Source of the DNA: Sedimenticola hydrogenitrophicus | GTDB lineage: Bacteria > Pseudomonadota > Gammaproteobacteria > Chromatiales > Chromatiaceae | Direction: 5' to 3' | Assembly: GCF_029017505.1 (NCBI RefSeq) | Contig: NZ_JAQGEI010000003.1 | Span: forward strand, 1 to 64,000 | Length of the DNA stretch: 64,000 nucleotides | In this document: in pieces, positions 38,054-47,561 of the stretch | How the letters are laid out: every line of letters starts with the position of its first letter | Numbering within the stretch: position 1 is the first letter of the stretch | The notes under the pieces: model-generated | The model's input: only the letters and a program-made list of their open reading frames with translations | What the model was told of the DNA's origin: nothing | The model's database searches: none | Made by a program: the position numbers and the translations under genes

Positions 38054-38284
38054 AAAGCGTGCCTTGCCCGCGTAGCCCGGTTACGCCCTCGGTACTGCGA
38101 AATTATTCTTGCGCAAGCCCTTAGGGCTCGCGCAAAAATAAGTTCCGGTATTCGGTCGCCCCTGGACCCCGCTGGCGGCGTTACGCTTTTTAGCAAGGGA
38201 ACAGCCATTGCCTGCAAAGCGTGCCTTGCCAGCGGAGCCCAGGAACGCCCTCGGTACTACGGAATTATTCTTGCGCGAGCCCTA
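38054..38284. repeat. Direct repeat pair with internal hairpin
   Basis: Two copies of a roughly 69-bp sequence starting AAAGCGTGCCTTGCC and containing ACGCCCTCGGTACT and ATTATTCTTGCGC lie at about 38054-38122 and 38216-38284, roughly 85% identical. The first copy runs into a near-perfect palindrome TTGCGCAAGCCC-TTA-GGGCTCGCGCAA. Non-coding. Confidence 0.75.
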
Positions 38285-43858: not shown

Positions 43859-45961
43859 ATGGATGCGACAGCGATCCTCAATAATGTGAAGGCCTCCGGC
43901 ATACGCGGGCTCGGCGCACCGCTGGTACTGGTGATGCTGCTGGTGATGGTGGTGATCCCACTGCCGCCGCTGGCGCTGGATATCTTCTTCACCTTCAATA
44001 TCGCGTTGTCGCTGATTGTGGTGATGGTGGTGGTGTACACCCTGCGGCCGCTGGAATTCAGCGTGTTTCCCAGTCTCCTGCTGGTGGCGACCCTGCTGCG
44101 CCTGGCGCTCAATGTCGCCTCCACCCGGGTGGTGCTGCTGGAAGGGCATCGGGGTGGGGATGCCGCCGGCAAGGTGATCGAGGCGTTCGGCGCCTTCGTC
44201 ATCGGCGGCAACTACGCGGTGGGCCTGGTGGTGTTCGCCATCCTGGTGATTATCAATTTCGTGGTGGTGACCAAGGGCGCGGGGCGTGTTTCGGAGGTCA
44301 GTGCCCGTTTCACCCTGGATGCCATGCCCGGCAAGCAGATGGCGATCGATGCCGATCTCAATGCCGGACTGATCAATCAGGACGAGGCCAGGGCGCGGCG
44401 TGATGACGTGGCCCAGGAGGCGGATTTCTACGGGGCGATGGACGGTGCCAGCAAGTTTGTCCGCGGTGATGCGGTCGCCGGCATCCTGATCCTGTTCATC
44501 AATATCCTGGGCGGGCTCTCCATCGGCATGCTGCAGCATGATCTGGATCTGTCGACCGCCCTGCGTTTCTATGCCCTGCTGACCATCGGCGACGGCCTGG
44601 TGGCGCAGATCCCGTCCCTGCTACTCTCCACCTCGGCCGCCATCATTGTCACCCGGGTGGCCTCGTCGAAGCAGGACATGGGCGGGCAGATCCTCAGCCA
44701 GCTGTTTACCAATCCCAAGGCGCTGATCATCACCGCGGTGGTGCTGGGCATGATGGGCATCATCCCCGGCATGCCCAATTTTGCCTTCCTGACCCTGGCG
44801 GCACTGGCCGGTGGCGGTGCCTGGTGGATCGTGCAGCGGCAACAGCGCGAGCAGGCGGCCCCACTGGTCGAGCCCATGCCCGAGCCGGCATCCGCGCCGG
44901 AACAGAAGGAGCTGACCTGGGATGATGTGCAGCCGGTGGATATCATCGGTCTGGAAGTGGGTTACCGGCTGATCCCGCTGGTGGACAAGAATCAGGGCGG
45001 CCAGTTGATGAACCGGATCAAGGGGGTGCGTAAAAAACTCTCCCAGGAGCTGGGTTTCCTGATTCAGCCGGTGCATATCCGCGATAACCTCGACCTCAGT
45101 CCCGGCGGCTATCGGATCTCGCTGAATGGTGTCACCATCGGCGAGGCCGAGATCTATCCCGACCGGGAACTGGCGATCAATCCGGGGCGGGTGTTCGGTA
45201 CCCTTCAGGGCGTGGCGACCACCGACCCGGCGTTTGGCCTGGAGGCGGTGTGGATCGACGCCGCGCAGCGCGACCAGGCCCAGACCCTCGGCTACACCGT
45301 GGTGGATGCCAGCACCGTGGTCGCCACCCACCTGAGCGAGATCCTGCAGTCCCATGCCCATGAGTTGATCGGCCACGAAGAGGTGCAGCAGCTGATGGAG
45401 GTGCTGAGCCGCAATGCCCCCAAACTGGTGGAGGATCTGGTGCCGGCGGTACTGACCCTGGGACAGCTGCTGAAGATCCTGCAGAACCTGCTTGCCGAGG
45501 GGGTGGCGATCCGGGATATCCGCACCATTGCCGAAACATTGGCGGAGTATGCGCCGCAGAGTCAAGACCTCGGCGCCTTGACCGCCAAGACACGGGTCGC
45601 CCTGTCCCGCTCCATTGTCCAGCAACTGGTTGGTCCTGTTGAAGAAATTCCCGTTGTTGTGCTGGATCCAGGATTGGAACAGATATTGCAGCAGACTATT
45701 CAGCCTGCTCATGAAGGGGGGGTCGGGTTCGAGCCCGGTCTGGCGGAACAGCTGCAGAAAGCGCTGGCCGAGACCGCCAACCAACAGGAGACAGCAGGAC
45801 AGGAGAGCATTCTTCTGGTCGCCGCGCCAATCCGCATGTGGATGGCACGCTTTGTCAAGCACAGCGTACCGGGTATGAGCGTACTCTCCTACAACGAAAT
45901 TCCGGACAACCGCAAGATCAAGGTGGTTGCCACGGTGGGCAGGCCCAATGCAGAAACATAA
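43859..45961 (+). CDS. flhA: Flagellar export platform protein FlhA
   Basis: Largest export-gate component; a nonameric ring coupling proton flow to export. The 700 residues have an N-terminal membrane half with eight helices (about 20-320), the conserved FHIPEP-family loop (RVSEVSARFTLDAMPGKQMAIDADLNAGLI), and a C-terminal cytoplasmic domain (about 340-700). Not interrupted. A folded repeat element follows before flhF. Confidence 0.96.
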   Translation: MDATAILNNVKASGIRGLGAPLVLVMLLVMVVIPLPPLALDIFFTFNIALSLIVVMVVVYTLRPLEFSVFPSLLLVATLLRLALNVASTRVVLLEGHRGGDAAGKVIEAFGAFVIGGNYAVGLVVFAILVIINFVVVTKGAGRVSEVSARFTLDAMPGKQMAIDADLNAGLINQDEARARRDDVAQEADFYGAMDGASKFVRGDAVAGILILFINILGGLSIGMLQHDLDLSTALRFYALLTIGDGLVAQIPSLLLSTSAAIIVTRVASSKQDMGGQILSQLFTNPKALIITAVVLGMMGIIPGMPNFAFLTLAALAGGGAWWIVQRQQREQAAPLVEPMPEPASAPEQKELTWDDVQPVDIIGLEVGYRLIPLVDKNQGGQLMNRIKGVRKKLSQELGFLIQPVHIRDNLDLSPGGYRISLNGVTIGEAEIYPDRELAINPGRVFGTLQGVATTDPAFGLEAVWIDAAQRDQAQTLGYTVVDASTVVATHLSEILQSHAHELIGHEEVQQLMEVLSRNAPKLVEDLVPAVLTLGQLLKILQNLLAEGVAIRDIRTIAETLAEYAPQSQDLGALTAKTRVALSRSIVQQLVGPVEEIPVVVLDPGLEQILQQTIQPAHEGGVGFEPGLAEQLQKALAETANQQETAGQESILLVAAPIRMWMARFVKHSVPGMSVLSYNEIPDNRKIKVVATVGRPNAET

Positions 45962-46313
45962 GGCAGCCATCGCTAAACGATCGAGCATTTAAGAATGGCG
46001 GATTGAATAAGCCGTTTGATCGGGTAGCTGGCTGCAGGGAAGCTAGTACTCTATCAGGATGATATTGACTAGTTCAGCGCCCCTGTGGTGTTTCGCCGCA
46101 AGGCGCGTCGTGCAGGCAATGGCCCGGTCCTTGTCAAGCGACGCAACGCAGCGGCGGGACACCACAGGGACGCCCTACGGGTTGGCCTGTCCGCGCCCCT
46201 GGCCGTGTTGCGGCTCTTGCAAAGGACCGGGCCATTAGCTGCGAGCCGCGCCTTGCCAGGAACGCGGACAGGACAACTGAATACGTCAATATCATCCTGA
46301 CAGAGTACTCGTT
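45962..46313. other. 352-bp flhA-flhF spacer occupied by a folded element
   Basis: No credible gene. The first 84 bp (45962-46045) are simple spacer and the rest is the inverted-repeat element described next. This is unusual in this operon, where most genes overlap or are spaced by under 40 bp. Confidence 0.7.
46046..46308. mobile_element. 263-bp element with 24-bp terminal inverted repeats and interleaved internal arms
   Basis: Terminal arms 46046-46069 (GTACTCTATCAGGATGATAT...) and 46285-46308 match at 23 of 24 positions in inverted orientation. Internal perfect inverted pairs are CCCTGTGGTGT (46081-46091/46159-46169), AATGGCCCGGTCCTT (46118-46132/46222-46236, with imperfect extension to about 35 bp) and CCTGTCCGCG (46186-46195/46263-46272). 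Their order A-B-A'-C-B'-C' is interleaved, not simply nested. No clear target duplication and no ORF of substance. It is unrelated to the TAACTACTC family and ends 5 bp before the flhF start. Confidence 0.78.
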
Positions 46314-47561
46314 ATGAAGATTAAACGCTTTTTCGCATCGGATATCCGCCAGGCCTTGCGCCAGGTTCGCGAGACGCTGGGCTCCGACGCGGTCATTCTG
46401 TCGAACAAGAAGGTGGATGGCGGCATCGAGCTGGTGGCGGCCATCGACTACGATGCCGCCGCCTTCGCGCCCCCGCCGCCCAGCCCTGCCAAACCGGCCC
46501 TCACCACGCTCAGGCCGTCCCGTCCGCAGCGCAGGGACAACCCGGCAGCGGTCGAGACGGCCTCCGGGGTGGCATCGGTGTCGCAGCTGAAGGAGCAGGT
46601 GGTCCCCAAGGTGGAGTGGAGTCAGGAACCGGTTCTGGTGGAGATGCGCCAGGAGATGCGGGCGTTGCGCCGCATGATGGAGAATGAGCTCTCCGGATTG
46701 AGCTGGCGTGAAATGGGCGATCACAAACCGGAAACCCGGGACCTGTTCCGCAAGCTGATGGGGCTCGCCATCAGCCCCGATATCTGCAGTCAGCTGGTCG
46801 ATAGCGTCACCGACGCGAGCACGGCAGACCAGGCTTGGCGCAAGGCACTCTACTATCTCGCTACCCAAATCGAGACCGTCGGCGACGATCTGCTGGAGCA
46901 GGGTGGCGTATTCGCGCTCATCGGTCCCACCGGGGTCGGCAAGACCACCACGGTGGCGAAGCTGGCGGCCCGTTTCGCCCTGCGCCACGGCACCCGCCAG
47001 GTGGCGCTGATCTCCACCGACAACTATCGTATCGGCGCCCAGGAGCAGTTGAATACCTACGCCAGGATACTGGATGTGCCGGTGCGCTCGGCGGGTACCC
47101 GTGAAGAGCTGGCGGTGGCCCTGAACGGGCTGACGGGAAAGCGACTGATCCTGATCGACACGGCCGGCATGAGCCAGCGGGATGTACGGCTCAGTGAACA
47201 GCTGGCGCTGCTGGATGTGGCCGGACAGGGCGTGCGCAGCTTTCTGACCCTCTCCGCCGCGACCGATTACTCGTCCCTGGAGCAGGCGATCAGCGCCTTC
47301 GGGGCGGCAAAACCCGAGGCCTGCATACTCACCAAGGTGGACGAGGCCGGCTCGCTCGGCGGTGCCCTGTCGGCGCTGATACACCAGGCGCTGCCGCTGG
47401 CCTTTGTCGCGGACGGTCAGAAGGTCCCGGAGGATCTCCATCTGGCCCGTTCGCATACCCTGGTCAGCAAGGCCGTGGCCTGCAGCACAGGGGGCGGTGA
47501 GTATTCCGATGAATACCTGGCACTGGCGCTGGGGGGTGCGAGAGCAAATGCTCATGGCTGA
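46314..47561 (+). CDS. flhF: Flagellar placement GTPase FlhF
   Basis: SRP-type GTPase that sets the polar site of flagellar assembly. The 415 residues comprise a basic N-terminal domain (KIKRFFASDIRQALRQVRETLGSDAVILSN), a proline-rich linker, an N domain, and a G domain with P-loop GPTGVGKTTTVAKLAARFAL, TDNYRIGAQEQL, DTAGMSQRD and TKVDEAGSLGG. No convincing ribosome site precedes the ATG because the inverted-repeat element ends 5 bp upstream. Overlaps flhG. Confidence 0.95.
   Translation: MKIKRFFASDIRQALRQVRETLGSDAVILSNKKVDGGIELVAAIDYDAAAFAPPPPSPAKPALTTLRPSRPQRRDNPAAVETASGVASVSQLKEQVVPKVEWSQEPVLVEMRQEMRALRRMMENELSGLSWREMGDHKPETRDLFRKLMGLAISPDICSQLVDSVTDASTADQAWRKALYYLATQIETVGDDLLEQGGVFALIGPTGVGKTTTVAKLAARFALRHGTRQVALISTDNYRIGAQEQLNTYARILDVPVRSAGTREELAVALNGLTGKRLILIDTAGMSQRDVRLSEQLALLDVAGQGVRSFLTLSAATDYSSLEQAISAFGAAKPEACILTKVDEAGSLGGALSALIHQALPLAFVADGQKVPEDLHLARSHTLVSKAVACSTGGGEYSDEYLALALGGARANAHG

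Follow-up and report, generated by a model that had tools for sequence, protein, structure and literature searches.

Several described systems resemble, in one respect or another, the 263-bp element that lies directly before flhF in the DNA analysed here. RUP of Streptococcus pneumoniae is likewise a short, non-coding sequence with terminal inverted repeats (TIRs), many copies and a TA target, and its mobilisation by IS630-Spn1 is thought likely (PMC2229807); however, RUP has an insertion sequence with matching TIRs whereas none was found for the element here, and the passages on RUP in that account make no mention of a double core of opposite polarity. The Correia or NEMIS elements of Neisseria are also MITEs with 24-bp TIRs and TA ends, with stem-loops proposed to act on neighbouring mRNAs (PMC2229807). 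In the outline given in that source these stem-loops are proposed RNase III substrates, whereas the element before flhF has a closing stem round two hairpins and a core that it shares with unrelated MITEs. The CIR repeats of Caulobacter and Brucella likewise have two long inverted repeats, that is two arms and a linker, but are described in the same source with a GANTC motif at a loop (PMC2229807), whilst in the present element TIRs enclose the two arms, which hold one and the same core in opposite orientations. The MITEs of Candidatus Thiomargarita nelsonii, also a sulfur-oxidising gammaproteobacterium, are alike in being high-copy and hairpin-forming with no parent IS identified (PMC4853749); the likeness is one of description, and the sections of that report on the MITEs mention neither the core nor a bias towards start codons. 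A parallel of a different sort is offered by genes 25 and 38 of phage T4, which have split ribosome-binding sites with experimental support (PMC3014915). There, as in what is proposed for flhF, a structure between the Shine-Dalgarno (SD) sequence and the AUG restores a working distance, although the T4 spacers are given as 27 and 22 nt (PMC3014915) and the insert at flhF is a 263-nt mobile element whose effect is a prediction.

The window, a stretch of 64,000 nucleotides from a genome of 5.13 Mb in 116 contigs (G000), contains neighbouring genes with Pfam matches to FlhB, FlhA, an SRP54-type GTPase (FlhF) and a ParA/MinD-type ATPase, the last of which is FlhG judging by its position. The gene flhA (43859-45961, + strand) encodes 700 aa of the FHIPEP family and flhF (46314-47561, + strand) encodes 415 aa with an SRP54-type GTPase domain, both by Pfam. 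The element, a member of what is called subfamily A below, occupies 46046-46308 and stops 5 bp short of the flhF ATG at 46314, in agreement with the initial annotation. That annotation had also described the operon as tightly packed, which is not borne out for this gap: the interval between flhA and flhF was not a tight one before the insertion, with 84 nt between the end of flhA and the element, and an intergenic gap is present in relatives without the element too. Nor is flhF lacking a clear ribosome site, as had been supposed. The native SD, AGGGA (46036-46040, + strand), is present, although the insertion has displaced it about 265 nt upstream and it now stands 273 nt before the ATG.

The TIRs, GTACTCTATCAGGATGATATTGAC on the left (46046-46069, + strand) and GTACTCTGTCAGGATGATATTGAC on the right (46285-46308, - strand), pair with one another and match at 23/24 positions. 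On the left the element is flanked by TA (46044-46045), a possible target duplication with the junction CTAG that is read on the basis of the TA/CTAG preference in other genera, and on the right by TC (46309-46310), ambiguous and possibly a decayed TA duplication. Inside the TIRs are two hairpins, each of which encloses a core of about 69 nt. Hairpin 1 (46077-46173, + strand) comprises an outer stem A/A' (46077-46099/46151-46173) and the core in sense polarity (46090-46158, + strand, 79.1 bits with covariance model R1), hairpin 2 (46180-46278, - strand) an outer stem C/C' (46181-46203/46255-46277) and the core in opposite polarity (46196-46264, - strand, 80.1 bits with the same model). Each outer stem spans 23 nt and is 87% matched, perfectly so in parts, and between the hairpins is the linker CCCTACGGG (46173-46181, + strand), several related elements having similar linkers. 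The crossing order A-B-A'-C-B'-C' that had been noticed at the outset is indeed found and comes about because two hairpins of opposite polarity stand inside a TIR stem; B, the apical part of hairpin 1 (46118-46132, + strand), is complementary to B', the apical part of hairpin 2 (46222-46236, + strand), because both hairpins hold the same core in opposite polarity. The fold of the stretch 46045-46309 is much more stable than that of its dinucleotide shuffles: with the strands taken as RNA, z is -12.5 for one and -13.8 for the other, and with the + strand taken as DNA it is -11.0. An ORF of 71 codons with a GTG start lies inside the element on the + strand and an antisense ORF of 473 codons overlaps it by its end; no reading frame is kept in the element, with indels and compensatory changes across the aligned copies.

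It is apparent that the element is not confined to flhF. A DNA search of its own genome brought up at least 6 more copies of nearly full length, which are 83-97% identical to it, together with a second subfamily whose identity is 72-81%; these counts are minima, as scoring covered 40 of 105 candidates. A genome-wide search for the termini, with up to 3 mismatches to the TIR pattern, gave 19 sites compared with 0 for the reversed pattern. The genome holds at least 22 copies or remnants, of which 12 belong to subfamily A (L001-L007, L015, L016 and the TIR-only pieces L018, L020 and L021) and 10 to subfamily B (L008-L014, L017, L022 and the remnant L092). Among relatives, 9/55 genomes (own included) matched at 1e-5, in several of them by the core alone, and a scan of named genomes gave at least 112 stretches. 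Relatives of the element thus occur elsewhere in the Gammaproteobacteria; the matches listed include Thiohalobacter, Thiogranum, Candidatus Thiodiazotropha, tubeworm symbionts, Chromatiales and Zhongshania, as well as MAGs labelled Porticoccaceae, Woeseia, Nitrosomonas and Halomonas. Plasmid and phage records were searched with no match to the element, and one viral contig has a single TIR. There are also palindromic elements of 31 bp that are barely more than the TIR (L168, L169, L174, L187, L197, L205, L220, L239, L242, L264, L276 and, in the own genome, L020), several of them with TAG flanks.

The element is short, multicopy, non-coding and bounded by TIRs, as MITEs are, and empty sites are present as well. 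Given the further copies, the empty flhF site in relatives and the occurrence of the core in elements with unrelated ends, the early description of a mosaic mobile element was a fair one. The probability that it is a non-coding MITE with TIRs and two cores of opposite polarity, which is a statement about its mobile identity and its anatomy, is put at roughly 0.85. A MITE is a known kind of element; it is the widespread inner core module that is the apparently undescribed part.

The insertion before flhF is recent. Nine genomes of the genus were taken, eight of which gave an FlhF match, and the site is occupied in the own genome and in the sister genome of S. hydrogenitrophicus (G001) and empty in the other six (G002, G003, G004, G005, G006 and G008). 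In one empty site the gap before flhF reads CAGGGAAAGCTAGGTATG, and the own occupied site reads CAGGGAAGCTA, then the element, then TCGTTATG, so the empty sites reveal that the native SD was split from the AUG by the insertion. The MITE would have entered the flhA-flhF gap in a common ancestor of the own genome and G001. Clean comparisons with empty sites were those of L001, L003, L005, L009, L011, L012 and L013 (L002, L010, L014 and L022 were left out), and in these the own copies add, besides the element itself, one or two bases. Where the own genome has L008 and L004, G001 has only short TIR-containing remnants (L113 and L108).

The copy at flhF is identical in G001 at 263/263 positions, with 63/1200 differences at aligned positions of the 600-bp flanks. 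Against L029, the corresponding locus of S. hydrogenitrophicus, from which the own sequence differs at 140 positions over a 3.3-kb stretch, the run of identity at flhF extends from 46009 to 46551 (543 identical bases); as it reaches well past the element, recent recombination at flhF is a fair alternative, and is what the run suggests. Across the eight insertions shared with S. hydrogenitrophicus the elements differ at 27/1860 positions and the 600-bp flanks at 547/9570, gaps left out, three of the eight elements carrying long-indel differences. L001, L003, L012 and L022 each have 0 or 1 difference to their shared counterpart, L009/L219 being the exception with 14/263, and at the seven shared insertions other than flhF the flanks begin to differ 3-35 nt away from the element. 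Change slower than in the flanks was seen for the pairs L001/L029, L003/L046, L006/L042, L012/L190 and L022/L051.

As to how the element moves, the TIRs would be the ends for a transposase acting in trans, with TA within CTAG as its probable target, like that of the IS630/Tc1-mariner enzymes. Outside the genus, 75/141 ends among the matches listed read TAG outward, and of the complete copies listed 15/39 have TA on both sides, 19 on one side and 5 on neither; the other genera favour a CTAG target with TA duplication. For S. hydrogenitrophicus the corresponding figures are 3/11, 4/11 and 4/11; in Sedimenticola most of the TA duplications are missing or decayed, and several of the empty sites read otherwise than CTAG. 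When models with no duplication, a 2-bp duplication (TA, CT or AG) and a 4-bp duplication (YTAR) were weighed by eye, no single one fitted all the own copies. It is a conjecture that the flanks reading CTGG/CCAG result from very-short-patch repair of CTAG.

A search for DDE_3 genes (PF13358) found no transposase with these TIRs (AGTRCTCYKTCA ends), and the element is therefore not classed as an IS630 MITE. The own genome has a single DDE_3 gene of IS630 type (L096, on G000:C23), which has other ends, with CTAG sites on either side and no fitting end of the GTACTC type. In 14 distinct other genomes searched for PF13358 (15 genome rows, G027 and G060 being one genome), 0/10 further loci examined had such ends, L289, L294, L298 and duplicates being left out. 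No autonomous partner between TIRs was recognised in 113 loci by a TIR-pair rule, and the sole locus translated (L275, 791 bp) had no long ORF. Three IS630-type elements in one tubeworm-symbiont genome likewise begin CTAGTG.

That the element forms a conserved structure, which had been raised as a possibility from the crossing repeats, is backed by covariation. From 47 extracted copies of several genera, 34 distinct ones were aligned, the other 13 being left out for their length, as near-duplicates or as members of another family (L035), and the consensus fold of the 34 is a closing TIR stem with two separate hairpins. In this fold 96.2% of cells are paired and 66/95 pairs have two-sided changes, with a covariation score of 0.401 compared with 0.156 when shuffled and 0.044-0.070 when slid. 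None of 500 shuffles reached any of five measures, but as the shuffles do not preserve relatedness the strength of the covariation is overstated. In 30/34 copies the energy minimum, too, is the two-hairpin form, and in the remaining 4/34, the flhF copy included, it is a long single hairpin. This long hairpin was considered as the conserved fold and set aside, its covariation being weaker (87.4% paired, 37/103 pairs two-sided, score 0.177) and 96/178 of its two-sided cells lying in the TIR stem that is common to both models. Since both further copies and covariation were found, neither the mobile nor the structural reading of the element falls away.

A further indication of structure comes from wobble pairs, which were counted at pairs whose commonest type is Watson-Crick, in cells that are related by descent. 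If the role of a hairpin were that of duplex DNA alone, G.T and A.C would be expected to be about equally frequent on either strand. On the top strand hairpin 1 has 64 G.T and 12 A.C (p = 1e-9), whilst in hairpin 2, where the core has the reverse polarity, the counts are 2 and 10 for the core stem and 5 and 13 for the outer stem; the junction pairs of that hairpin (12 and 0) go against this polarity, and hairpin 2 as a whole is balanced (19 and 25, p = 0.45). The TIR stem has no clear bias (22 and 15). In ten cores taken from other elements, all in the sense direction, there are 10 G.T and 1 A.C. The tolerance of G.T and not A.C mainly on the sense strand of the core therefore hints at a folded RNA or single-stranded DNA (ssDNA), and on these comparisons of aligned copies there is moderate evidence that the core may act as one. 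With the cores as an inverted pair, insertion in either orientation would give a transcript one sense copy.

The core is not limited to the elements with these TIRs. In the own genome a second family consists of a 157-bp element with a single core and another TIR, GGCTCGCGCAAGAATAAGTTC, often with TTA/TAA flanks; it has at least 40 matches, and 46 loci were examined. One such element lies within the window at 38125-38281, with its core at 38169-38237, and is abutted by a second copy that ends at 38119. In other genomes the core is found in elements with ends beginning CTAGTGGGCC or CTAGTGTCCTGTC. A covariance model of the core (43 sequences, 15 pairs), in which 11/15 pairs have two-sided changes over the 43 sequences, detected it at E <= 1e-5 in 77/274 sampled genomes of the class (at most 18 candidates scored per genome) and in 45/299 sampled genomes of the phylum (at most 17), the own genome counted in each. 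G048, of the same class, has many core matches, of which L033, L039, L043 and L050 are in elements with ends TAGTGGGCCAAGTGGAAAG or CTAGTGTCCTGTC. Against Rfam the region 45900-46500 gave five matches, all to miRNA models and below the gathering cut-off, and no description of this core, or of a series of MITEs between SD and start codon, was recognised in the open-access literature.

It might be argued that the element is a neutral passenger, an insertion without effect in which the covariation reflects only palindrome correction and the constraints of the transposase. The copies are scattered, with many far from starts, and the correction of quasi-palindromes during replication is a known mutational route that can yield compensatory changes without selection on RNA. 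Such an explanation is possible but unlikely, as it does not readily accommodate a strand-polar tolerance of wobble pairs that is present in most hairpin helices and absent from the TIR stem, the slow change of the eight shared copies relative to their flanks, or the presence of one core in elements with unrelated TIRs.

Where the copies lie relative to genes depends on the subfamily. The test, made after the pattern had been seen, counted element ends that lie 4-8 nt before the ATG of an ORF with 60 codons or more; the background, measured on this window, is 3.5% per end and 6.9% per copy. In the own genome 9/10 copies of subfamily B are before an ATG, at 4-6 nt (P = 3e-10), whereas subfamily A, the type at flhF, is marginal with 3/12 (P = 0.045), and family 2 as a control has 1/46. 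Of the ends listed from other genera, those of GTG type are at starts in 5/34 cases (P = 0.006) and those of GTAC type in 4/107 (P = 0.52); in S. hydrogenitrophicus the counts are 6/11 for GTG and 2/13 for GTAC. A start-codon bias of the whole family, which was the idea considered at first, has accordingly been narrowed to one that is strong in subfamily B, marginal in A, moderate for the GTG-type ends of other genera and not seen for their GTAC-type ends. Either target choice or selection may account for the position of the subfamily-B copies. Pfam matches were obtained for 8/10 of the downstream products scanned other than FlhF, namely Maf, NUDIX, response regulator, DUF502, Fer4, dihydroorotate dehydrogenase B iron-sulfur domain, AzlD and AcrB-type; the products downstream of L003 and L022 had no Pfam match, and that of L092 was left out.

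A placement of this kind could mean that the element brings a ribosome-binding site of its own, the end of the element, GGAG in subfamily B or AGAG in A, replacing the native SD 4-8 nt before the ATG. For subfamily B the arrangement GGAGCAC-N4..6-ATG is present in the same 9/10 own copies, the truncated remnant L092 retains GGAG and ATG so arranged with its left half gone, and the predicted anti-SD pairing of the B end (-5.8 kcal/mol) beats that of the element-excised sequence in 4/8 B copies. However, flhF has only the weak SD-like AGAG in the right TIR (46302-46305, + strand, a reading of the sequence), at -2.4 compared with -5.1 for the displaced native SD, and this AGAG is predicted to be buried in a read-through mRNA; moreover, the GTAC-type ends of other genera mostly have GGAG and yet lack the bias. 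As a general account it is improbable, though not negligible.

For flhF itself a different outcome is preferred. In a read-through mRNA of flhA and flhF, closure of the TIR stem would bury the weak AGAG and leave about 10 nt between the native SD and the AUG, the same distance as with the element excised; production of FlhF would then continue, although its level might change. The predicted unpaired probability in such an mRNA is 0.79 for the native SD region, 0.36 for the AUG and 0.01 for the AGAG, and that of the AUG in relatives with an empty site is 0.34-0.36 in 3/4 and 0.71 in G003. The joined flanks would read GCAGGGAAGCT-CGTTATG, compared with GCAGGGAAAGCTAGGTATG in a relative. A consensus scan of the element found no outward promoter or terminator. 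Bridging of the split SD by the TIR stem in exactly this form, which draws on folding predictions and on the analogy with T4, is a tentative proposal with the odds somewhat against it, and a reduced amount of FlhF, or initiation by way of the AGAG within the element, are serious alternatives. An incidental effect on the translation of FlhF is plausible.

The remaining suggestion, that the element is an evolved RNA switch for FlhF dosage retained for the control of flagellar number, could appeal to the complete identity with S. hydrogenitrophicus between diverged flanks, but it is very improbable, as the element is absent before flhF in 6/8 genus genomes with readable flhF and so is not a conserved flhF regulator, copies stand before unrelated genes (Maf, response regulator, AzlD, RND pump genes and others), the run of identity outruns the element and fits recent recombination, and other shared copies change slowly too. 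If the MITE does act as a regulator of flhF, this is probably accidental.

A wider view of the core would make it a structured RNA or ssDNA module, so far undescribed, that rides on MITEs of unrelated transposases across Proteobacteria, its paired copies giving any mRNA one sense copy, and would make the subfamily sitting between SD and start codon a portable translation regulator. Taken as a whole this is speculative and rather doubtful. The interest of the element is in the core and in the series of insertions. MITEs are usually viewed as passive derivatives of one transposon. As one covarying core is found in MITEs with different ends and in many genomes, the question is therefore why unrelated mobile elements have kept it. 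The insertions that separate SD from AUG in front of identified genes, for their part, are a natural experiment on how ribosomes deal with large structured inserts and, at flhF, on FlhF dosage.
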